A DNA stretch of 37,069 bases from Candidatus Omnitrophota bacterium (GTDB lineage Bacteria; Omnitrophota; Gorgyraeia; 2-01-FULL-45-10). A model generated the notes under the pieces. The model worked only from the letters and a program-made list of their open reading frames with translations, had not been told where the DNA came from and made no database searches. Made by a program: the position numbers and the translations under genes. The stretch is from contig JAUYOL010000031.1 in assembly GCA_030695905.1 (NCBI GenBank), forward strand, positions 1-37,069. Reading direction: 5' to 3'. Below are positions 13,191 to 36,744 of this stretch, in pieces; the first letter of the stretch is position 1, and each line of letters opens with the position of its first letter.

Positions 13191-13199
13191 TGATATAAT
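13171..13199 (+). promoter_or_regulatory. Promoter of the fic gene
   Basis: TTGCCA (13171-13176), a 17-base spacer and TATAAT (13194-13199). Transcription would start near 13206, leaving a leader of about 47 bases. It overlaps the end of the GIY-YIG relic. Confidence 0.7.
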
Positions 13200-13252
13200 T
13201 GTATCACATATTGAAGCGATTAATAGCCATAATCGCCTCAGAAAGCATACAT

Positions 13253-14374
13253 ATGAAGTATATTTGGGAACGCAAAAACTGGTTTGATTTCAAATATGAC
13301 AACGCGGTTTTACTTAAACCATTAAGTGAACTACGTGTATTACAAGGTAAGCTATTAGGGCGCCTTGCGTCTTTGGACATCAAGCTTGAAACTGAGGCCC
13401 AAGGTGCTATTCTAGTTGAAGAAACCGTTCGTACCGCAGAAATCGAAGGGCAAAAGCTAAATCGTGATGAAGTCCGATCATCGGTAGCTGTGAAGCTTGG
13501 CCTACCGTATGGCGTAGGTCCACATAATAGGAATATTGACGGCCTCGTAGATGTTTTACTGGACGCCGTTCGTTTTCACGATAAACCTCTAACGCTCGAA
13601 CGGCTTAATGGCTGGCACGCAGCATTGTTCCCTACAGGTTATTCCGGATTAAGAAAGATTAAAACCGGTAAGCCAAGAGGCGATGAGCTTATGCAAATAG
13701 TGTCCGGTCCTGCCGGTAAGGAAAAAGTACATTTTGAGGCATTGCCAAGAGATCGCCTCGATGAGGAGATGCGACTTTTCCTAAAATGGTGGAATTCATC
13801 TCAAGGTAGCTCTGACGGCATACTGCGTGCCGCTGTTGCTCATCTGCGTTTTTTAACGATCCATCCTTATGAAGATGGCAATGGGCGACTTGCACGGGCT
13901 ATAACAGATATGGCGTTAGCGCAGGATGAAAAGATGAGGGTGAGGTTTTACAGCGTCTCTTCCCAGGTTATGCGTTCGAGAAATGAATACTATAATATCC
14001 TCGAAGGTGTACAACGTTGCCGTATTGAGCCAACAGAATGGTTTTTGTGGTTTATTAAATGTATTACTATGTCTATCGAGGATTCACGCGATATCATAGC
14101 AAATGTCTTTATGAAGATCGATTTCTGGAACCAGCACGCCCAAGATGAGCTTAATGATAGGCAGAAGAAGATTATCAATCGTATGTTGGAGCTAGGTCCG
14201 GGTAATTTTACCGACGGGCTGACGACGCGAAAATATGTAAGTATAACAAAAGCAAGCCGTGCTACGGCATTCCGTGAGATTTCAGATATGCTAGATAAAA
14301 AGATACTACACCAATTGTCCGGCAAGGGCCGCAGTGTTCACTATGATTTAATCTGGCCGCAGGTAGGGAAGTAG
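13253..14374 (+). CDS. Fic-domain AMP-transferase with N-terminal autoinhibition
   Basis: A 373-residue Fic protein that likely attaches AMP to target hydroxyls using ATP. The N-terminal MKYIWERKNWFDFKYD is the DUF4172 start, which fixes ATG 13253 over the upstream TTG. The inhibitory motif T-A-E-I-E-G (about 61-66) matches the S/T-x-x-x-E-G/N helix that blocks the active site from the N-terminus. The catalytic motif HPYEDGNGRLARA (about 204-216) is intact, including His and the two arginine-side positions. The C-terminus (ILELGPGNFTDGLTTRKYVSITKASRATAFRE type) looks like a winged helix. It is a single gene with its own promoter and a downstream terminator. Confidence 0.92.
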   Translation: MKYIWERKNWFDFKYDNAVLLKPLSELRVLQGKLLGRLASLDIKLETEAQGAILVEETVRTAEIEGQKLNRDEVRSSVAVKLGLPYGVGPHNRNIDGLVDVLLDAVRFHDKPLTLERLNGWHAALFPTGYSGLRKIKTGKPRGDELMQIVSGPAGKEKVHFEALPRDRLDEEMRLFLKWWNSSQGSSDGILRAAVAHLRFLTIHPYEDGNGRLARAITDMALAQDEKMRVRFYSVSSQVMRSRNEYYNILEGVQRCRIEPTEWFLWFIKCITMSIEDSRDIIANVFMKIDFWNQHAQDELNDRQKKIINRMLELGPGNFTDGLTTRKYVSITKASRATAFREISDMLDKKILHQLSGKGRSVHYDLIWPQVGK

Positions 14375-20088: not shown

Positions 20089-20133
20089 AAACATAACCGT
20101 TTTACCCACCGGGTGGGTAAAACGGTTATGTTT
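20089..20133. terminator. 45-base perfect palindrome, likely terminator of the tRNA pair
   Basis: Two 22-base arms (20089-20110 and 20112-20133) are exact reverse complements with a single base between them. The centre reads CCCACC-G-GGTGGG and the ends are A/T-rich (AAAC...GTTT). It could stop transcription from the tRNA pair or act as a REP-type site. Confidence 0.7.
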
Positions 20134-20164: not shown

Positions 20165-20192
20165 TTGTCATTGTAACGTATTATGGTATGAT
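20165..20192 (+). promoter_or_regulatory. Leaderless promoter of the giant protein gene
   Basis: TTGTCA (20165-20170), a 16-base spacer and TATGAT (20187-20192), then eight bases to ATG 20201. No ribosome site fits. Confidence 0.7.
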
Positions 20193-20200
20193 ATTATGGT

Positions 20201-23200
20201 ATGTTAGGATATAAGAATCCAAGATGTATTAAAATTATATCCGTTTTGCTAATAGCCGCATTTTTAGGCACCAATTTCGCTATAGCATCCGATTCCCACG
20301 CTCTTTCCCCAACCTCTGAATTAAAACCAATAGCTCGAATAGTAAAACAAAATGGCGCATATAGCGTTGTCAGCGATGCCGGACAATTGAGTAAGGATGC
20401 GCGTTTCAAGGAAGTGGCGGAAGCGCTCTCTTTAAATACTGCAGCTATCAGAACCATCGGCCGGGCGCTCTATCTTCGTTTAAGCGAGTCCGGAGTCAAA
20501 GAGCTGCTTAGGCGTAGACTTTCCATATACCCACTGGTGGCAACAGGTCGCGTTGAAATTCAGAAGAAAACAGATGACTCTATATTTTTTACCTGCAAAG
20601 ACGCTCGCCAAGGAATAATCTCTTATAGATCTTTTCTGCCGAATAATGAAAAACTTCCACCACGCGCGCAACTCATATCTTTGCCCGATGGGAAAATTTT
20701 TGGACTACAGGTCTTGTCGATAGAAAAAATGCCTGTCAATACGGCTGAAGACACCTTCATGCTCGAAAACTTTTTTACTTTCGAAGAATATATGGCACAG
20801 GCGCTTTATAATCCTGTCTGGGGATTTTATTCCGGAGGCAAAATAAGACTGGGCCATGATTTCGGCACTATGCCTATCATGCTTTCTCCTGTTTTTGGGC
20901 AAATGGCCGCGGAAAGATTCTTCCAGATGTGGAAAGGTATGGTCAAAGCGGGAACCATCGCTAATGATGAAAAATTTTATGTAATTGAATTTGGCGCCGG
21001 CACAGGGATTCTCGCCCGCGATATCCTTTCACATGTATCTGAAAAATCACAACTCGATAGAGAATGGAAAATATTTTACAACCAGTTCCAATATGTAATA
21101 GGCGAAATTGCGCCGCCATTAATACAAAAACAATCCGACAATAATAGAAGATTTATTGAAAACGGAAAATTAGAGATACGACAATCCGATGCCAGAAAAA
21201 TGGATAATCTTTTTGGCGCAGGAAAAAAAATAAAAGGCGTTGTATTCTCTAACGAGCTTATGGACGCCTTCCCGGCTCACCGGATCACTATAGATAGCAA
21301 TGGCAGGGCGCATGTAATAGTCTGTGTGCCCACTCTCGAAGATAAACTCTTTAGCGAAGAAGAGTTTTTTAACGGAGACCAAGTCTTACCCGGATCAGAA
21401 ACTATGAGAAGCGTCGCATCCTTTATAGAGAAAGGGTTGAAAAATACGGGTTTAAGCATGGAAGAATTAAGGAAAAAGAGCAGTAAGGCCGGTTATTATG
21501 GACTCAATTCGCAATTTGTAAGGGATCTTGTCCAGGATCCATTTATAGTAATAGGTAGGGAAGATGCTATGCGATTACAGGATATCCTATCCCGCCCCGG
21601 CATGGAAAGGTACCGCAAAGTTTTAAACGCGTATTTAACGGTTAAAGAGTATGAGGTGCCGATAGAGTCCTTTCCGGAATTAAAAAAATGCTTTGAAGTC
21701 AATAGTAATGAAATAAAAAACGCCCTTGCCGGAGACAATGGACGCATGGGCATATCTTTGGGGTGGTTTGAATTTGTCCGTAGCGCGTCCAGTCTTTTGG
21801 ATAAAGGCTATGTATTTACAATAGATGACGGTTATATGACATCAGAGCTTATGCATCCTGGAAAAGTAAACGGGGACAATATACGCGTATTTCATCGTCA
21901 ATTTGGCAATGTGGGTAATCCCTACCGCCACTGGGGCGAACTAGATATATGCGCGATGCCTGATTACGGAATGATGGAAAAAGAGGGATTGGAGCATGGT
22001 TTAAGGCCGGTTTTTAATGGTGCGTTAGTTTCTCTACAGGAAGATATATCTCTAAAGATAGATTCGGAAGATTCGCATAAGCAGATCGTTAGTTATTTGG
22101 AAAGATTTGAAATCGCGATACATATTGAACCTCTGGTGCTTAAAGCGAGAAAAGATCTTTCCGAAACGGAAAAGTCCGAATTCAGAGCTGCCATAGAAAA
22201 GTATCTCGAAAAAGGCGAATGTCCTCTTGCGGGCAGTATCAGTAAAAAAGCAGAAGAGGTTTTTACCGAGCTCATTACAGGCGCAAAAAAAGCCGCTGAA
22301 GACACCTATTCTGACTGGCGTAAAATGTTTGCTACCGAACATCGTATTCTTATTCAGCAAAAGGAAGGTACGGACCCAGCATACTATTTTGGAACGGCCG
22401 TTTCGGTCGGGCACAAAAAACAGCTTGGCACTTCAAGGTTCGATGAGGAGATTTTTAGGGAGGATACGAGTAGAAATAAGCGCTTAACTACTGTGCCAGG
22501 CAGGGAGGGTAATAGCCAAATATCCGGATCGCGGCCTATCGGCAAAGAGGGAGAAGAGATACCGTTTTTTGAAGAAGCATTAGATTCCACCATTGGAATT
22601 GATATGGATGGAAGCGAGCGCAGGGCCTCGCTGATGATTAACCAGGAATTGATGAGCGAATTAAGCGAGACTGACTTAAGTCGGATTAAAGAAAAAATAG
22701 GTAAAGACCATGCGGCAGAAGAAAATGTACGGTCAGCAAGGCTGGACCTGGAGCATCCCATAACTCATATAAAGGGCGAAAGACTACAGATACCGATAGA
22801 ATCTTTATGGATAAAAGGCATTGTATTTGATAGTAGAAGCGAGCTCTCTTTTCATGAGGGTGACGATGCCCGCGGAAGTGTGCCTTATCTTTTTCTTGCA
22901 GATAAAAATGGCCTTATCCACCGGCGTGATTCGGAAGGAGTTCCGCATGGGGCGGCTTATCTTCGTGATGTGATCAATGAGTATTTAATATCAATGGACA
23001 TAACACACGATGTGAGGTTAAAAGGCAAGGCTGTGCCGAAATATCCAGTGGGATGGGGAGAATTTTTTATTGAAACGCCCTTTCGCGACAAGGACGGCGA
23101 CATAAGGCGCCTTGGGTTTGTTATTTTGGGAAATTCCGCGGAATTGATGAAAAGGTCAAACAATACCACATGGGGAGAAGATACCGCAGCGGCTTTGAAG

Positions 23201-25093
23201 ACACTGCATGATAATGGTTATTTCAGGCATTATACGCATCCAGGCAACATATCCATCTTGCCGGATGGGAGCACTCAGATCCATGACCTCGACATCATGG
23301 TTGACCAGCGGACCGGGATGACACCTGAAGAGATGCTTGCCAATCAATTTTTAGATTTTGATTATGTCTTCGGTAAGCTCGTAGAGATGAGGGCCTTATT
23401 CACAAGCGCCGATGAAGAGATAACGATTGAAGGTGTAGGCATCTTTGAAAAATATTTCCCGGATGAAGACGCGAGCCTGGGTAAGATAACATTTAAAGAA
23501 GTCGAGCGTCTCTTGCGTGAAGCACAATCCGCGCCGGTGAATGAAATCAAACATCCATTGATAGATGCGCTCAAAAGAAACATGGAGCGAGCAGGTTTAG
23601 CTGATTTAGGGATAGAGTTGCATTCAGATGCTAAGGGTGCGAAGGATAATGATCTGCGTATTGAGGTAGAGAGAGAATTTGGCATGTATCTTACAGCAGA
23701 CAAAATGAGTCCGGAAATCAAGACGGATGGCAGGATAGAGTATGTAAGATTCAACGTCAATGATGAAGAAGGCCATAGAGGACCGGCAGACGATATATCA
23801 AGGTTCCGTCTTAGCGAAGGCGACTTCCTGGACATATTTGATACGGAAGAATCGAGTGCGCTTATAGGTCGGGATATGAAGGCAAATGAACGGCTCGCCA
23901 CAGAAAAAATAACAACATGCGTTGGCGTAATGTTCGAGATTGTATCAAAAGGTAGACGTATACCGGGGATATCACATCTTTTGTCCGGATCCGAAGATCA
24001 GGAAGACCTGTTTAACGAGTCGGAAGCCTTTCTTAAAATTCTTACTGAAGAGAATCCGGATGAATTAAAGATTGTTATATATAGTGATGAAATTGGCGAT
24101 GGGGAGTTCAGCCGGAATAAACGGATGGCATATCAAAAACTCATTCAGGAACTGCGCACGTGTTTTCCATTTGCTATCATAAAGGAAGAAGTTTGGCATG
24201 GCCTATACGAAGATACGGCTCTTATGGTATCCAGGGGCGGATGGGCTATATATAGAGGTTATAAGAACATTTCCGGTCCCGGCCAGATCTTATGCGGTAG
24301 TTGGGCTGAAGTAGAGAATCGGATAAACAATCATGCCGAATCGCTCTTAGAAGAAGAGCTCGCAATTGCTCTTGATAAACCTGCCGTAAAAGATCCATGG
24401 GAAATGTATATGGAGGGTGAGACAATTTCTGCAGATTTGAGTAGAGTTGTAGTCAGAGAGCCGAAAGAGATGGCAAGTCTTATTGATACTGAAAGCAGGC
24501 GAGGTGGCATATTCCTGGATGAATTGAAGATCTTGGCCCAGAAAGCTAAAGAGGAGGGCAGAAAAATCCTCATAGCCCTGGAAATAGACGGCCTTGTTTC
24601 GACCGGCCAAAGAAGCATGATGCAGCCGTTATTATCAGAATTGCACAGACTTGAAGACGATCTCAGGAAAATAGGCTTGGATAATGTCATTATAGTGCGC
24701 GGTTCCGGCAGTGAATTTGCAGTGAAAATTACAAAAGCCATGTCGGCGTCATCTATTAAATTACAGGATGTTATAGTGCTTGGCAGAGAAGATACGTTGA
24801 ATTCTTCATCATTTGATAATCTTAAAAGCACTGATTCCATAAACGGCGCGCTACTCGTAGGAATCGATCCAAGGAATCTCTCAGGATATAATTATATGCG
24901 GCTTCTCGAAATGCTTATGATAGCGCTTAGTATAGCCGATGGCAAACAAATCGATCCCAAACAGCACCCGGAGATAATTATAGAGTTTATCGGTAAAAGG
25001 CTAATCAGGCTTATTCCTCTTGCCGAGCCGATGAAATACGAAGAGCTAAAAACTATATATAAAGGCCAATTTAAATCTCTGCAAGCTGCATAA
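20201..25093 (+). CDS. Giant exported protein: MidA-type methyltransferase plus kinase-like and C-terminal domains
   Basis: A 1630-residue protein with an N-terminal export signal (hydrophobic segment about 12-28, then SDSHALSP), a style I associate with large Omnitrophota proteins. Residues about 190-640 match MidA/NDUFAF7 SAM-dependent methyltransferases: FFTFEEYMAQALYNPVWGFY, the SAM loop VIEFGAGTGILARDIL (near 262), VVFSNELMDAFPAHRI (near 350) and WGELDICAMPDYG (near 583). Near 1002-1035, LKTLHDNGYFRHYTHPGNIS followed by IHDLDIM looks like a degenerate kinase catalytic loop. The last 450 residues include VGIDPRNLSGYNYMRLLEML, also familiar from Omnitrophota proteins. MidA enzymes methylate arginine on complex I; why one would be exported and fused is unclear. 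Confidence 0.75.
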   Translation: MLGYKNPRCIKIISVLLIAAFLGTNFAIASDSHALSPTSELKPIARIVKQNGAYSVVSDAGQLSKDARFKEVAEALSLNTAAIRTIGRALYLRLSESGVKELLRRRLSIYPLVATGRVEIQKKTDDSIFFTCKDARQGIISYRSFLPNNEKLPPRAQLISLPDGKIFGLQVLSIEKMPVNTAEDTFMLENFFTFEEYMAQALYNPVWGFYSGGKIRLGHDFGTMPIMLSPVFGQMAAERFFQMWKGMVKAGTIANDEKFYVIEFGAGTGILARDILSHVSEKSQLDREWKIFYNQFQYVIGEIAPPLIQKQSDNNRRFIENGKLEIRQSDARKMDNLFGAGKKIKGVVFSNELMDAFPAHRITIDSNGRAHVIVCVPTLEDKLFSEEEFFNGDQVLPGSETMRSVASFIEKGLKNTGLSMEELRKKSSKAGYYGLNSQFVRDLVQDPFIVIGREDAMRLQDILSRPGMERYRKVLNAYLTVKEYEVPIESFPELKKCFEVNSNEIKNALAGDNGRMGISLGWFEFVRSASSLLDKGYVFTIDDGYMTSELMHPGKVNGDNIRVFHRQFGNVGNPYRHWGELDICAMPDYGMMEKEGLEHGLRPVFNGALVSLQEDISLKIDSEDSHKQIVSYLERFEIAIHIEPLVLKARKDLSETEKSEFRAAIEKYLEKGECPLAGSISKKAEEVFTELITGAKKAAEDTYSDWRKMFATEHRILIQQKEGTDPAYYFGTAVSVGHKKQLGTSRFDEEIFREDTSRNKRLTTVPGREGNSQISGSRPIGKEGEEIPFFEEALDSTIGIDMDGSERRASLMINQELMSELSETDLSRIKEKIGKDHAAEENVRSARLDLEHPITHIKGERLQIPIESLWIKGIVFDSRSELSFHEGDDARGSVPYLFLADKNGLIHRRDSEGVPHGAAYLRDVINEYLISMDITHDVRLKGKAVPKYPVGWGEFFIETPFRDKDGDIRRLGFVILGNSAELMKRSNNTTWGEDTAAALKTLHDNGYFRHYTHPGNISILPDGSTQIHDLDIMVDQRTGMTPEEMLANQFLDFDYVFGKLVEMRALFTSADEEITIEGVGIFEKYFPDEDASLGKITFKEVERLLREAQSAPVNEIKHPLIDALKRNMERAGLADLGIELHSDAKGAKDNDLRIEVEREFGMYLTADKMSPEIKTDGRIEYVRFNVNDEEGHRGPADDISRFRLSEGDFLDIFDTEESSALIGRDMKANERLATEKITTCVGVMFEIVSKGRRIPGISHLLSGSEDQEDLFNESEAFLKILTEENPDELKIVIYSDEIGDGEFSRNKRMAYQKLIQELRTCFPFAIIKEEVWHGLYEDTALMVSRGGWAIYRGYKNISGPGQILCGSWAEVENRINNHAESLLEEELAIALDKPAVKDPWEMYMEGETISADLSRVVVREPKEMASLIDTESRRGGIFLDELKILAQKAKEEGRKILIALEIDGLVSTGQRSMMQPLLSELHRLEDDLRKIGLDNVIIVRGSGSEFAVKITKAMSASSIKLQDVIVLGREDTLNSSSFDNLKSTDSINGALLVGIDPRNLSGYNYMRLLEMLMIALSIADGKQIDPKQHPEIIIEFIGKRLIRLIPLAEPMKYEELKTIYKGQFKSLQAA

Positions 25094-27302: not shown

Positions 27303-27590
27303 ATGAAAGAGGTAATAGTTGTCGAGAGGGCTGTAATAATAAAAAATAAGCAGGGGCTGCACGCGCGTCCCGCGGCGCTATTTGTCCAGATAGCGAATAA
27401 ATTTGATTCTGATATTACCGTTACCAAGGGTAAGACCAAGGTTAACGGTAAATCTATTATGGGGATAATGATGCTCGAGGCGGGCAGGGGTTCCAAGGTT
27501 ATCATAGTCACAAAAGGAGAAGACGCCGAGAGCGCAATGGCAGAGTTAGAAGCGCTGCTTTTAAGCGATATCGAGGACGTTATAAAATGA
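27303..27590 (+). CDS. ptsH: Phosphocarrier HPr
   Basis: A 95-residue HPr. His20 lies in the active-site motif GLHARPAA. Ser51 lies in KSIMGIMML, exactly 31 residues later, as for His15 and Ser46 of Bacillus HPr. The conserved serine context suggests control by an HPr kinase, which is not in this window. It overlaps the enzyme I gene by ATGA, so the two are made together. Without a permease here it probably feeds the IIA protein and signals carbon state. Confidence 0.96.
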   Translation: MKEVIVVERAVIIKNKQGLHARPAALFVQIANKFDSDITVTKGKTKVNGKSIMGIMMLEAGRGSKVIIVTKGEDAESAMAELEALLLSDIEDVIK

Positions 27591-29353
27591 CAAGAGAAAA
27601 AGAACTTGCATTAAAAGGTATTCCTGCCGCTCCCGGTATAGTAATAGGTAAAGTGCTGCTTTTGGATAGAGAGCAGTATGTAATTCCTAAGAGGCCCGTA
27701 AAAGACGATCAGATTCAGGTAGAGATAAAGCATTTTAGAGATGCTTTAATACAGACTAAGCAGGAGATAATAGATATTAAGAAGCGTATCTCCGAAGAGC
27801 TTGGTACCGAGCATGGCCAGATATTCAGCGCGCATCTTCTTGTTATAGAAGACAGCATGCTGATAGAAGAGGTAATCGCGAAGATTAAGAAAGAAAAACT
27901 TTCCGCCGAATACGTATTCCAGGATGTGCTCAAAAAGTATATAAAAGTATTCTCGGAAATGGATGATGAATATCTCCGTGAGAGAATAAGCGACATAAAC
28001 GATATAGGCAAGAGGATCCTCAAAAACCTTATCGGCGCCAGAGAAGACGCGTTGGCCACATTGAAAGAGAAAGCCATTGTAATATCTTATGACCTTTCGC
28101 CTTCCGATACAGCTACTATGCACAAGAAAAATGTTATAGGTTTCGCTACGGACATAGGCTCAAGGACATCGCATACCGCTATCATGGCGAAATCACTGGA
28201 AATACCCGCGGTAGTCGGACTCGAAACCATTACAAAAGATGTCAAAAATGGCGACAATATAATAGTGGACGGGACGCACGGTCTTGTTATCATCAATCCT
28301 ACCCCTGCTACACTTAAGCATTATGAATTGGCCCGCAAAAAGATGGTTGCTTTCGAAAAGCACCTGCTCGAAACCAAAGAATTGCCGGCGCAAACTCTGG
28401 ATGGCAGAAAAATCGAACTAATGTCCAATATAGAGATACCCGAAGAGGTTCCGTCCGTATTAGCGCATGGCGCTGAAGGCATAGGCCTTTACAGGACAGA
28501 ATATTTTTACATGAACCGCAAAGATCTGCCTACAGAGGAAGAGCAGTTCAAGGCGTATTCATCTGTAGCGAAAAAGATGAAGCCTTATACGGTTATTTTA
28601 AGGACGCTGGATCTTGGCGGAGACAAATTTCTTTCGCAGCTCGATATACCGCAGGAGATGAATCCTTTTATGGGATGGCGCGCGATACGTTTTTGTCTGG
28701 CCAGGCCCGATATATTCAAGACACAGCTGCGCGCTATATTGAGAGCATCGGTATTTGGCAAGCTGAAGATGATGTATCCGATGATTTCAGGCCTTGAGGA
28801 ACTCAGGCAGGCGAACGCTATTTTAGAAGATACAAAGAAGGAGTTAAGAAAGGAAGGCATAGCCTTCGATGATAATATGCAGGTAGGCGCTATGATAGAA
28901 GTTCCTTCCGCCGCTTTGACCGCGGATATGCTGGCAAGAGAAGCGGACTTTTTTTCGATAGGCACCAACGATCTTATACAGTACTCTCTTGCGGTCGACA
29001 GGGTAAATGAGAAGATAGCTTACCTCTATGAGCCCGCGCATCCCGCGGTGCTCATTCTTATAAAAAACATTATTGAGGCCGGTCATAGGGCGGGTATATG
29101 GGTAGGGATGTGCGGAGAGATGGCCGGAGACCTATATATGACCTTGATACTTTTGGGGCTTGGACTGGATGAATTCAGTACTTCGCCGGTGGCTGTGCCC
29201 GAAATAAAGCGCATAATAAGATCCGTTACAATGGATCAGGCTAAGGAGATAGCTCAGCAGGCTCTTACATTATCTACGGGTAAAGAGGTCGAAAGATTCG
29301 CGAGAAGAAAACTTAAAGAGCTGGTGCCTGACGTAGGAATAGAGGTAGAATAA
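27587..29353 (+). CDS. ptsI: PTS enzyme I (PEP-protein phosphotransferase)
   Basis: A 588-residue cytoplasmic enzyme that moves phosphate from phosphoenolpyruvate to HPr. The start shows KGIPAAPGIVIGKVLLL, the phosphohistidine motif is SRTSHTAIMAKSLEIPAVVG (His196), and the PEP-binding barrel has GIGLYRTEYFYMNR, DLGGDKF, MYPMISG, FFSIGTNDLIQYSLAVDR and GMCGEMAGD. Length is standard. It is translationally coupled to HPr. Confidence 0.97.
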   Translation: MTREKELALKGIPAAPGIVIGKVLLLDREQYVIPKRPVKDDQIQVEIKHFRDALIQTKQEIIDIKKRISEELGTEHGQIFSAHLLVIEDSMLIEEVIAKIKKEKLSAEYVFQDVLKKYIKVFSEMDDEYLRERISDINDIGKRILKNLIGAREDALATLKEKAIVISYDLSPSDTATMHKKNVIGFATDIGSRTSHTAIMAKSLEIPAVVGLETITKDVKNGDNIIVDGTHGLVIINPTPATLKHYELARKKMVAFEKHLLETKELPAQTLDGRKIELMSNIEIPEEVPSVLAHGAEGIGLYRTEYFYMNRKDLPTEEEQFKAYSSVAKKMKPYTVILRTLDLGGDKFLSQLDIPQEMNPFMGWRAIRFCLARPDIFKTQLRAILRASVFGKLKMMYPMISGLEELRQANAILEDTKKELRKEGIAFDDNMQVGAMIEVPSAALTADMLAREADFFSIGTNDLIQYSLAVDRVNEKIAYLYEPAHPAVLILIKNIIEAGHRAGIWVGMCGEMAGDLYMTLILLGLGLDEFSTSPVAVPEIKRIIRSVTMDQAKEIAQQALTLSTGKEVERFARRKLKELVPDVGIEVE

Positions 29354-33654: not shown

Positions 33655-34983
33655 ATGGGCAGGAAAGCGGTAGATATGGATAGTATTGTATCAGACTTAG
33701 TTTTGGCACCTAGTATGGATGAAAAGATCAGAGTAGCGAAAAAGATAACCGACATCGCTTATAAAAAAGGTATCTATTCTTCAAGTATAAACGGCCTTTA
33801 TATGGCTAGGGGTAAGAATGAATTCCCCTGCACGTTTACTGTGCCCGCAATTAATTTAAGGACATTGACATATGATCTCGCAAGGGCGATATTCCGCGTC
33901 GCAAAGCGCAATAATGCCGGAGCGTTCATATTCGAAATAGCGAAGTCGGAGATGGGGTATACCGACCAGCCGCCGGTTGAATACGTTGCCGTATGTCTTG
34001 CCGCCGCGGTGAAAGAAGGCTGGACAGGCCCCGTATTTATACAGGGTGACCATTTCCAGGTAAGCGCCAAAAACTATAGGGATAATCCTACAAAGGAGAT
34101 AGACAGTCTTAAGGCCCTGATGTCCAAAGCCATAGAGGCGGGATTTTATAACATAGATATAGACTCATCTACCCTGGTTGACCTTTCAAAGCCGTCCATA
34201 AAGAAGCAGCAGAAAGACAATTATGAGGTGTGCGCTCTTCTTACCAACTTCATAAGGCAGAATCAGCCTCGCGGGATAGAGATATCTGTGGGCGGAGAGA
34301 TAGGAGAAGTCGGGCACCAAAATTCCACGCCGGAAGATTTAAGGGCATTCATGGACGGGTACAAAGATAAGCTGCGTAAGGGCAGAGTGGGCATAAGCAA
34401 GATAAGCATCCAGACCGGCACATCTCACGGCGGCGTCGTGCTGCCGGACGGCACAATAGCCAAAGTCAAGCTTGATTTTGACACGTTAAAAAATCTGTCG
34501 AAGATAGCGAAAGAGGAGTATGGCATGGCCGGCGCGGTTCAGCACGGAGCGAGCACACTTCCTTCGGAGGCGTTCGGGAAGTTCCCGGAGAATAACGCGG
34601 CAGAAGTGCATCTGGCGACCGAATTCCAGAATATGGTATATGACAGCGCTCATTTCCCCAAAGAGCTTAAAGATAGAATGTATGATTGGGTAAGAAAGAA
34701 CCTGGCTTCGGAAAGAAAGCCCAATGATACCGACGAGCAGTTTATATACAGCGCCAGAAAAAAAGCTTTGGGCGCGTTCAAAAAGGATATAATGAACCTT
34801 CCCAAAGAAACGAGGGACGCTATAGCGGCGGAGTTGGAAAAGAAATTCGAGTTTCTCTTTGAAAAACTTAATGTGAAGAATACCAGGGATCTTACTTCCA
34901 AGTATATAACTTTGAAGAGGGTTATATCCAGGAAGAGAGAGCCTTCTGCTCACGTAGAATTGACAGGAGAGGGCGCGGATTAA
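33655..34983 (+). CDS. Class II fructose-bisphosphate aldolase family protein
   Basis: A 442-residue TIM-barrel aldolase-like protein. FTVPAINLRTLTYDLARAIF, FIQGDHFQVSAKNY (with the D-H metal-site pair), IEISVGGEIGEVGHQNS, QTGTSHGGVVLPDGT and VQHGASTLPSEAF correspond to class II aldolase strands, the last two histidine segments being zinc ligands. It is longer than typical FbaA (about 350) because of N- and C-terminal additions, as in the tagatose-bisphosphate or type-B groups. It completes the sugar-phosphate theme of the operon. It converges with the permease gene, overlapping its stop by four bases. Confidence 0.85.
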   Translation: MGRKAVDMDSIVSDLVLAPSMDEKIRVAKKITDIAYKKGIYSSSINGLYMARGKNEFPCTFTVPAINLRTLTYDLARAIFRVAKRNNAGAFIFEIAKSEMGYTDQPPVEYVAVCLAAAVKEGWTGPVFIQGDHFQVSAKNYRDNPTKEIDSLKALMSKAIEAGFYNIDIDSSTLVDLSKPSIKKQQKDNYEVCALLTNFIRQNQPRGIEISVGGEIGEVGHQNSTPEDLRAFMDGYKDKLRKGRVGISKISIQTGTSHGGVVLPDGTIAKVKLDFDTLKNLSKIAKEEYGMAGAVQHGASTLPSEAFGKFPENNAAEVHLATEFQNMVYDSAHFPKELKDRMYDWVRKNLASERKPNDTDEQFIYSARKKALGAFKKDIMNLPKETRDAIAAELEKKFEFLFEKLNVKNTRDLTSKYITLKRVISRKREPSAHVELTGEGAD

Positions 34984-36074
34984 GCTCTTTTATTTAGTAG
35001 ATATATCCCCAGCCCGGCGAAGACTATGTTGCCGAGCCATGCGGCGATGAATGGAGGGAGGGCTCCGTTTTTTCCCAGAGCCAGTGATACTGCTATTACG
35101 GCGTAGTATAGAAGGCCTATTACTATGCTCATGCCTATGCCTATCATGACACCTCCGCGCATAGTCAGAAGCGCGAATGGCGCCGCTACCATTATTATTA
35201 TAAGGCTGATAAACGGAAAGGCGACCTTGTAGTGCAGGTCGACAAGGAAGTTTCTGGCTATCTTGAGGTCCGAACCGCGGAAGTTTTTAATATAGTTGCT
35301 TAGTTCCCCGTAACTCATGAAATCTGATTTCCATTCTCCATACGCGAAATCCCTGGGCCTTTCCTTAAGAGGTATTATCATTTCGGTATGAAATTCCGGC
35401 GCGCTCATTATTTTACCCGCATTATCAATCTTGGTCTTTATGACTTTATAAAATTTCCAGCCGGAGCCTGTCCAGACGGCGCTTTGGGCCGTGACCTTTG
35501 ATATGAGGCTTTCCGACATGTCGTGCTCATGTATGATTATGTCGTTAAGCTTCTTATTTCCGACCTCATAATTTCTCGCGAAGACTATCCTGTTTCCGGT
35601 TCCATATACCGCGACATTTTCTATGACCCTTGATTTATTGTCCGAAACCTTATGTTTTTCCAGCTCTTCGCGCCTTATCATCTGCGATACCTTCGATGTT
35701 ACAGGTATTATCCTGTCATTTGCCACATATACGAAAATGCTGATCAGAAAACCGATTGCGAGCAGAGGCGTCAATATGCGCCATAATCCTATGCCGCTCG
35801 ATTTCATCGCTATAATTTCGTTATTCTTATTCAGATTGCTCAACATATATATAGTGGATAGCAGGACCGCCATAGGGATGACCTGCTGTATTATTATTGT
35901 GGGCGTATAATAGAAATAGAACGCGAATATGGACTGAAGCGGAATCTTAAATTTTACTATATCGTCTATAAAAGAGAATATATCTATTATTACCGCCATT
36001 ATCACGAATACGAAGAGGCACCATATGAAGGATGAGGCGAAACTTTTTGACATATATCTGTCTATTATCTTCAT
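34980..36074 (-). CDS. LptF/LptG-type permease (YjgP/YjgQ family)
   Basis: A 364-residue inner-membrane protein with three hydrophobic segments near the N-terminus (starting FIWCLFVFVIMAVIIDIFSF), a periplasmic jelly-roll-like middle (about 130-270) and three near the end (FISLIIIMVAAPFALL ... WLGNIVFAGLGIYLL). This is the LptF/LptG layout; the pair with LptB2 extracts lipopolysaccharide from the inner membrane. Only one such gene is present, so F versus G is undecided. ATG 36074 is chosen because AGAGGA lies about ten bases upstream; a TTG at 36095 would overlap comF. Confidence 0.9.
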   Translation of the reverse strand: MKIIDRYMSKSFASSFIWCLFVFVIMAVIIDIFSFIDDIVKFKIPLQSIFAFYFYYTPTIIIQQVIPMAVLLSTIYMLSNLNKNNEIIAMKSSGIGLWRILTPLLAIGFLISIFVYVANDRIIPVTSKVSQMIRREELEKHKVSDNKSRVIENVAVYGTGNRIVFARNYEVGNKKLNDIIIHEHDMSESLISKVTAQSAVWTGSGWKFYKVIKTKIDNAGKIMSAPEFHTEMIIPLKERPRDFAYGEWKSDFMSYGELSNYIKNFRGSDLKIARNFLVDLHYKVAFPFISLIIIMVAAPFALLTMRGGVMIGIGMSIVIGLLYYAVIAVSLALGKNGALPPFIAAWLGNIVFAGLGIYLLNKRA

Positions 36075-36078
36075 TGCG

Positions 36079-36744
36079 CTAAATTCCTCTTGCAAGTGTT
36101 AAGCATGTTACTCTTTTTGCGTCGCCCGACAGGAGAATGCCCGCGCACTCATTTAATGTCGCGCCAGTAGTCATAACATCGTCTATCAGAAGGATGCTTT
36201 TTCCGCTTATGTTGGTATTTTTGTATACTCTAAAAGCATTTTTGAGATTAACAAGCCTGTCGGATTTTGATAATTCGTTCTGGTATCTCGTCTTTACCGT
36301 CTTCTCAAGAGTATGTTTAATTGGCATACTGAATTCTTTAGCTATTTTATTCGCAAGCAGTAGCGATTGATTGAATTCGCGCTCTTTTAACCTTGCTTTG
36401 TGTAATGGTACGGCCGTTATCATGTCAACTTCCGTGATTTCTGGATTTTCCCTAATATAATTTATCATAATTTTCGCAAATATACCCGTGAGGGCCGTTT
36501 TGCCTTTGTATTTAAAGCTGTGTATAAGATCTTTCGTTATGCCCTCGTATAGACATGCCGAATATGCTATCACAGACGATGTTTCAAGCTCAAATGGCGG
36601 CATTGCATTGCATTTTATTGAGCCTATGCACTGGCCGCAGAGGTGAAACTTGTTAAGCGCGTCGAGCTGCTTAGCGCAACCAAGGCAGTGTAAGGGATAG
36701 AAGAGGTTTATGAAATTTTTAGCGATCGTTTTCAGCTCCTGCAT
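36079..36744 (-). CDS. comF: ComF family phosphoribosyltransferase-like protein
   Basis: A 221-residue ComF protein. It has an N-terminal zinc-binding pair (HCLGC and LCGQC), the conserved YEGITKDLIHSFKYKG, VPLHKARLKEREFNQS and the phosphoribosyl-pyrophosphate loop ILLIDDVMTTGATL. ComF proteins act in DNA uptake and recombination in competent bacteria. It is preceded by a consensus promoter eight bases from the ATG, predicting a leaderless message, and is followed with a four-base gap by the LptF/G gene. Confidence 0.93.
   Translation of the reverse strand: MQELKTIAKNFINLFYPLHCLGCAKQLDALNKFHLCGQCIGSIKCNAMPPFELETSSVIAYSACLYEGITKDLIHSFKYKGKTALTGIFAKIMINYIRENPEITEVDMITAVPLHKARLKEREFNQSLLLANKIAKEFSMPIKHTLEKTVKTRYQNELSKSDRLVNLKNAFRVYKNTNISGKSILLIDDVMTTGATLNECAGILLSGDAKRVTCLTLARGI

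Follow-up and report, generated by a model that had tools for sequence, protein, structure and literature searches.

The stretch analysed here, referred to as the window, comprises 37,069 nucleotides of contig JAUYOL010000031.1 (forward strand; assembly GCA_030695905.1, Candidatus Omnitrophota bacterium) and carries at positions 20201-25093 an open reading frame (ORF), P0001, for a protein of 1630 amino acids. The source genome, of the phylum Omnitrophota, is a draft of 1.82 Mb in 43 contigs with 97.5% completeness. The ORF runs intact from an ATG at 20201 to a TAA stop at 25093, its GC content at the three codon positions (0.52/0.36/0.41) is of the coding type, and it is confirmed as real. 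We found that the protein belongs to a family whose members share their ends and differ in their middles. Using profile searches, alignments and structural models, we mapped its domains in a layout that is very probably correct:

20201-25093, plus strand: whole ORF, 1630 amino acids (ORF, codon-position GC)
20201-20293, plus strand: signal-peptide-type N-terminus, residues 1-31, with Lys/Arg, a hydrophobic core at 12-26 and A-I-A-S (sequence, hydropathy)
20285-20758, plus strand: shared N-terminal domain of type B, residues 29-186, starting A-L-S-P-T-S (10 ORFs with the domain, alignment, search)
20756-22030, plus strand: MidA-type methyltransferase domain, residues 186-610 (Pfam, PDB relatives, motifs)
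22556-23659, plus strand: kinase-like domain, residues 786-1153 (relatives' profile, alignment, model, fold search)
23660-24340, plus strand: probable CheD-like domain, residues 1154-1380, putative site T1234/C1240/H1259 (alignment, profile-profile comparison)
24503-25090, plus strand: new C-terminal domain, residues 1435-1630, ending at the stop codon (...SLQAA) (searches, model)

Residues 611-785, between the MidA and kinase-like domains, received no domain assignment, and residues 1381-1434 form the linker between the CheD-like and C-terminal domains. A Pfam RLL match at 616-714 (23.4 bits, under its cut-off) and an aminotransferase match at 1397-1470 (E 0.6) were treated as chance. A preliminary description of this stretch had listed the MidA, kinase-like and C-terminal domains, all of which were recovered, and had overlooked the shared N-terminal domain and the CheD-like domain.

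The C-terminal domain first came to light as the closing part of two further ORFs in this genome, one of which is a frame of 7260 codons. The preliminary description had proposed surveying it in other large proteins of the phylum, and the survey showed that it is conserved in 34 of the 384 genomes of the phylum, every one from a single class. Using its close relatives as queries against named genomes, we obtained 17 loci, all in Omnitrophota, while a scan of the named genomes with the whole protein gave no match. The domain is strictly terminal: in all 71 distinct copies whose stop codon could be seen, 0-6 residues separate the end of the domain from that codon. It was modelled as an alpha/beta fold of ~196 amino acids at a predicted local distance difference test score (pLDDT) of 89.6, and had no match in Pfam or PDB sequences and no fold match at E<=0.001 in PDB and viral structures. 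Judged by these comparisons, the C-terminal ~196 residues constitute a new, previously undescribed family; we found no description of it in the literature, of which further parts, including preprints, may hold one. The middles of the proteins that carry it comprise HEAT and TPR arrays, methyltransferase 11, GH130, TreT/GT4, NAGPA, M20 peptidase and kinase-like domains, as well as GNAT, MbnB-like, transglutaminase, mannitol dehydrogenase, DegT aminotransferase and radical SAM domains. The family architecture is thus a signal, a shared N-terminal domain, a swappable payload and a shared C-terminal domain. A sister protein of 775 amino acids (L074) consists of the N-terminal domain, the same kinase-like domain and the C-terminal domain; these three stand in one frame in genome G015, and G181:C44, of another family, combines MidA and the C-terminal domain within a single frame. 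Because the C-terminal domain is always terminal while the preceding sequence varies, it is best read as a putative sorting, anchoring or processing tag. The copies end in Ala in 65 of 71 cases, as against 9 of 78 control ORFs. We considered whether this Ala-rich tail is an ssrA-like degron and rejected it, since the called transfer-messenger RNA (tmRNA) tag of the genome, AAPLASVAL, does not match. That tmRNA call (L127, G000:C10:8008-8426) lacks the usual Ala-Ala end and may be a miscall. In the 7260-codon frame (L003, G000:C34), a von Willebrand A-like segment (DESGSMGS) and the C-terminal domain make up the end. In a further locus (L073, G257:C24:28800-42605), four consecutive ORFs of ~900-1275 amino acids, each ended by the C-terminal domain and with repeated middles in common, form a tandem family.

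At the other end of the protein, hydropathy analysis found a single strong hydrophobic window, residues 12-30 (mean Kyte-Doolittle value 2.1), which is preceded by K5, R8 and K11 and runs into A-I-A-S-D. The export signal claimed in the preliminary description is therefore upheld as a sequence prediction, and the N-terminus is probably of the export type. Signal-like starts were found in 35 of the 42 ORFs ending in the C-terminal domain that have an upstream stop, compared with 21 of 78 control ORFs. By their first ~200 residues the sister ORFs split into two types, and the studied protein is of type B, whose N-terminal domain (~155 residues after the signal) is common to 10 ORFs. Searched alone, this domain matched in 4 of 105 genomes, all of them positive for the C-terminal domain, and five of seven ORFs that carry it end in the C-terminal domain. 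Of the remaining two, one is a long frame in G085 and the other, an ORF of 702 codons, belongs to the studied genome. The latter (L200, G000:C1, about 27550-27891) combines a signal, the type B domain and two phospholipase-D-like HKD repeats, with no match to the C-terminal domain.

The MidA domain named in the preliminary description is present: residues 186-610 match PF02636 (Methyltransf_28; COG1565) with 74.6 bits against a cut-off of 23.3 (E 1e-20), and its PDB relatives are 4f3n and the NDUFAF7 homologue 5ztz. The S-adenosylmethionine (SAM) motif I, EFGAGTG at 263-269, and SNELMDAFP at 350-358 are intact, so that GxGxG and NELxDAxP are kept as in the MidA/NDUFAF7 family; at 541-544 the domain has IDDG where relatives have IDYG. 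Known members of this family have ~400 amino acids and are cytosolic or mitochondrial, and NDUFAF7 methylates the complex I subunit NDUFS2 (PMC3829151), whereas the studied protein is of the exported type, with 1630 amino acids and four other domains. The expectation that MidA is a cytoplasmic enzyme of about 400 residues does not hold as a rule in Omnitrophota. The 384 genomes gave 33 matching stretches, spread over 31 of them; all but one are in open frames of at least 500 codons, the exception being a partial match in a frame of 351 codons, and the frames are mostly several times longer than the enzyme itself, although such lengths from the genome search are upper bounds that can include masked stretches. 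All six MidA proteins with the N-terminus in view, including the studied one, have signal-like starts, followed in two of the short ones by a C-L-S-P-A motif. One MidA frame (L203-L215, G142:C2:7949-219298) was reported as 70,450 codons with ~72 kb of masked N inside; past the mask it has ~46,400 stop-free codons, exceeding the published ORF of 39,678 amino acids.

The segment L-H-D-N-G ... H-P-G-N-I ... H-D-L-D, described earlier as resembling a degenerate kinase loop, corresponds to residues 1003-1031 and indeed lies in a domain of kinase fold. No Pfam family could be assigned to this domain, and a profile built from its relatives, many of which are in very long frames, matched the catalytic loop of protein kinases in the PDB. 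The AlphaFold2 model was confident (pLDDT mostly above 85-90), and the matches of the fold search were all protein kinases (best E 1.4e-4), led by pseudokinase and divergent kinase structures; their template-modelling scores are low, an effect of the poorly modelled second half that the query included. We found that the beta-3 Lys (K872), the alpha-C Glu (E927), the loop Asn (N1016) and D1029/D1031 of HDLD are kept. The catalytic-loop Asp of HRD/HGD is replaced by Y1011 here and by Y, F, R, A or S in relatives, and no member has Asp. Pseudokinases such as SelO and ROP5 likewise keep the fold, Lys, Glu, Asn and metal-site Asp and lose the catalytic-loop Asp, and SelO nevertheless transfers adenosine monophosphate (AMP) (PMC12409994). 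We draw the SelO parallel as an analogy, which does not imply membership.

For residues 1154-1380, the alignment of six relatives has only Thr81, Cys87, Gly103, His106, Leu136 and Pro170 as invariant columns, and in 16 divergent rows Cys and His are the sole invariant columns, with Thr six residues before Cys in all but two. The putative site T1234/C1240/H1259 thus has the Thr-x5-Cys...His signature of CheD-type glutamine deamidases, and 15 CheD proteins of the same phylum have the same T/S-x5-C pattern. Pfam CheD (PF03975) did not match in this region, and a PDB profile search gave nothing meaningful. Compared with the CheD profile by hhalign, the domain scored 36.5 (P 9e-5, probability 59%) with Thr, Cys and His in register, and a broader alignment scored 34.8; the controls reached at most 19.0 for 100 column shuffles, 12.9 for the reversed profile and 15.1 for the unrelated C-terminal domain. 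The fold model is of low confidence (pLDDT about 40-68), and its strand-strand-helix order is compatible with an alpha-beta-beta sandwich. The CheD triad is Thr21, Cys27 and His44, and in the CNF1/YfiH-like group strict conservation covers Cys and His but not the third residue (PMC7022378). From this sequence pattern the domain likely belongs to the CheD/CNF1-YfiH-like cysteine hydrolases (CheD, NTAN1 and relatives), although the assignment is not settled. Thr lies six before the invariant Cys in both the studied domain and CheD, His follows Cys by 19 residues here and by 17 in CheD, and CheD is a chemotaxis protein of ~165 amino acids whereas the studied domain is found in large proteins of the exported type. 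Elsewhere in the phylum, a Pfam CheD match above cut-off lies inside a 3277-codon open frame (G132:C12:27848-28147), so true CheD domains occur in large frames of Omnitrophota too.

The ORF stands alone between transfer RNA (tRNA) genes, with tRNA-Arg and tRNA-Leu upstream and tRNA-Lys and tRNA-Gly downstream. Beyond these lie unrelated metabolic genes: a PTS EIIA-type gene, which is the first annotated gene after tRNA-Lys/tRNA-Gly, and genes for a CofD-type protein, a phosphoenolpyruvate-utilising enzyme, a phosphoglucose isomerase-type enzyme, SAM synthetase and S-adenosylhomocysteine hydrolase. Among the annotated neighbours there is no immunity-type gene, although a small unrecognised ORF is possible. 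LptF/G is encoded at 34980-36095 of the window and the genome has five secretins, so an outer membrane is likely. A further feature lies 8 bases 5' of the start codon:

20165-20192, plus strand: promoter-like site TTGTCA-16-TATGAT with TG

Its scan score was no better than chance, and the promoter reading was dropped. A near-perfect hairpin, CCGTTTTACCCACCGGGTGGGTAAAACGG, at 20100-20131 between tRNA-Leu and the ORF is perhaps the end of the tRNA unit. At 13199-14374 the window encodes a protein with a DUF4172-Fic domain, an AMPylation-type enzyme.

With its export-type signal, three modules of protein-modifying type and an end shared by dozens of other large proteins, the protein hints at a system by which interchangeable enzymes would leave the cell. 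We propose that the studied protein is a modular, effector-like exported protein with constant ends and a cargo middle. The N-terminal signal would move it across the inner membrane by a Sec-type route, and family-wide sorting or anchoring would be the task of the shared N-terminal domain and, even more, of the C-terminal domain with its strictly terminal position. The cargo would be the MidA-type methyltransferase, the kinase fold without the catalytic Asp and the CheD-like domain of deamidase type; domains of all three kinds modify or bind proteins. SAM and adenosine triphosphate (ATP) are cytosolic and normally not available outside the cytosol; the cargo therefore most likely acts on or inside a different cell, be it prey, host or rival, and less likely on the producer's own envelope. 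We assign a probability of roughly 0.45 to this mechanism as a whole. The evidence counted for it is the terminal C-terminal domain, the signal-like starts, the differing middles, the co-occurrence of N- and C-terminal domains, the recurrence of MidA with the C-terminal domain, the long signal-bearing MidA frames, the CheD-type signature with its shuffle control, and the proposal that Omnitrophota are predators or parasites (PMC10066038). Several observations weigh on the other side: 7 of the 42 ORFs show no signal at the start, in some cases perhaps through truncation or a wrong frame, no secretion gene adjoins the ORF, and the sorting role rests on analogy with type IX cargo because the C-terminal domain has no known fold. 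In addition, some of the cargo may be inactive because the kinase lacks the catalytic Asp and MidA has IDDG for IDYG. More tentatively, this Omnitrophota lineage may have an export-and-delivery system of its own, in which the terminal domain and matching N-terminal domains mark a large range of swappable cytosol-type enzymes for transport to or into other cells. The single chain of this member would then deliver a methyltransferase together with a CheD-type deamidase and with a pseudokinase possibly transferring some other group.

A possible but doubtful alternative is that the protein acts on the producer's envelope, as a multi-domain protein of the periplasm or anchored at the surface, modifying envelope proteins or serving as their scaffold, with the C-terminal domain as anchor. 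The signal-type start, the likely outer membrane and the position as a solitary chromosomal gene next to housekeeping genes agree with this, whereas the cofactor argument counts against it and the family carries many more kinds of payload than envelope maintenance requires. Somewhat less probable is a scaffold or adhesin of decayed enzymes, whose domains bind ligands or proteins without catalysis. The loss of the catalytic Asp in all kinase-like members, the IDDG of MidA and the HEAT and TPR arrays of sister proteins would fit such a scaffold, as would the adhesin role proposed for giant Omnitrophota proteins (PMC10066038); however, the invariant Cys and His of the CheD-like domain and the intact motif I and NELxDAxP of MidA point to catalysis.

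That the protein is an ordinary cytosolic MidA serving complex I-type proteins, with a hydrophobic start by chance and fused passengers, is very unlikely. The MidA domain is real and a suitable type of substrate exists in the four 49-kDa-type genes of the genome, by which we also ruled out a missing complex I as an argument against the usual role of MidA. The six signal-like MidA N-termini, the N-terminal domain shared with other signal-bearing proteins and the length of most MidA frames stand against it; a role in complex I assembly is improbable, since long frames with a signal hold most MidA copies of Omnitrophota. A chimeric assembly joining unrelated genes, for which the only point is the 43-contig draft, is hardly credible given a single frame without stops, the one-frame combinations in G181 and G015, and the same terminal placement in the 71 copies.

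Compared with known systems, the effector-like protein proposed here shares with the giant ORFs of Omnitrophota, which have been described as poorly conserved, difficult to interpret and with few annotated domains (PMC10066038), the phylum and the recurrence of kinase-like, CheD-like and MidA modules in very long frames, and the C-terminal domain also ends the 7260-codon frame. The studied ORF differs in its length of 4.9 kb, below the >20 kb definition, and in its conserved ends. In Planctomycetes-Verrucomicrobia-Chlamydiae relatives, proteins are reported to reach 85,800 amino acids (PMC12057145). The conserved C-terminal domain offers a handle on large Omnitrophota proteins: it marks the cargo set, the payload repertoire can be listed and sorting is testable. 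A protein that is exported and unites a methyltransferase, a CheD-type deamidase and a pseudokinase would be unusual as an effector and could be a means of predation or parasitism. Polymorphic toxins likewise combine constant trafficking parts with swapped effector parts, whereas here the payload is central, the constant parts are at both ends and a tRNA follows instead of an immunity-type gene. Cargo of type IX secretion has, as here, a signal at the start, a variable middle and a conserved sorting-type domain that is strictly terminal. The type IX C-terminal domain is a compact immunoglobulin-like beta-sandwich (PMC11285876), whereas the domain of the studied protein has ~196 amino acids and an alpha/beta model.
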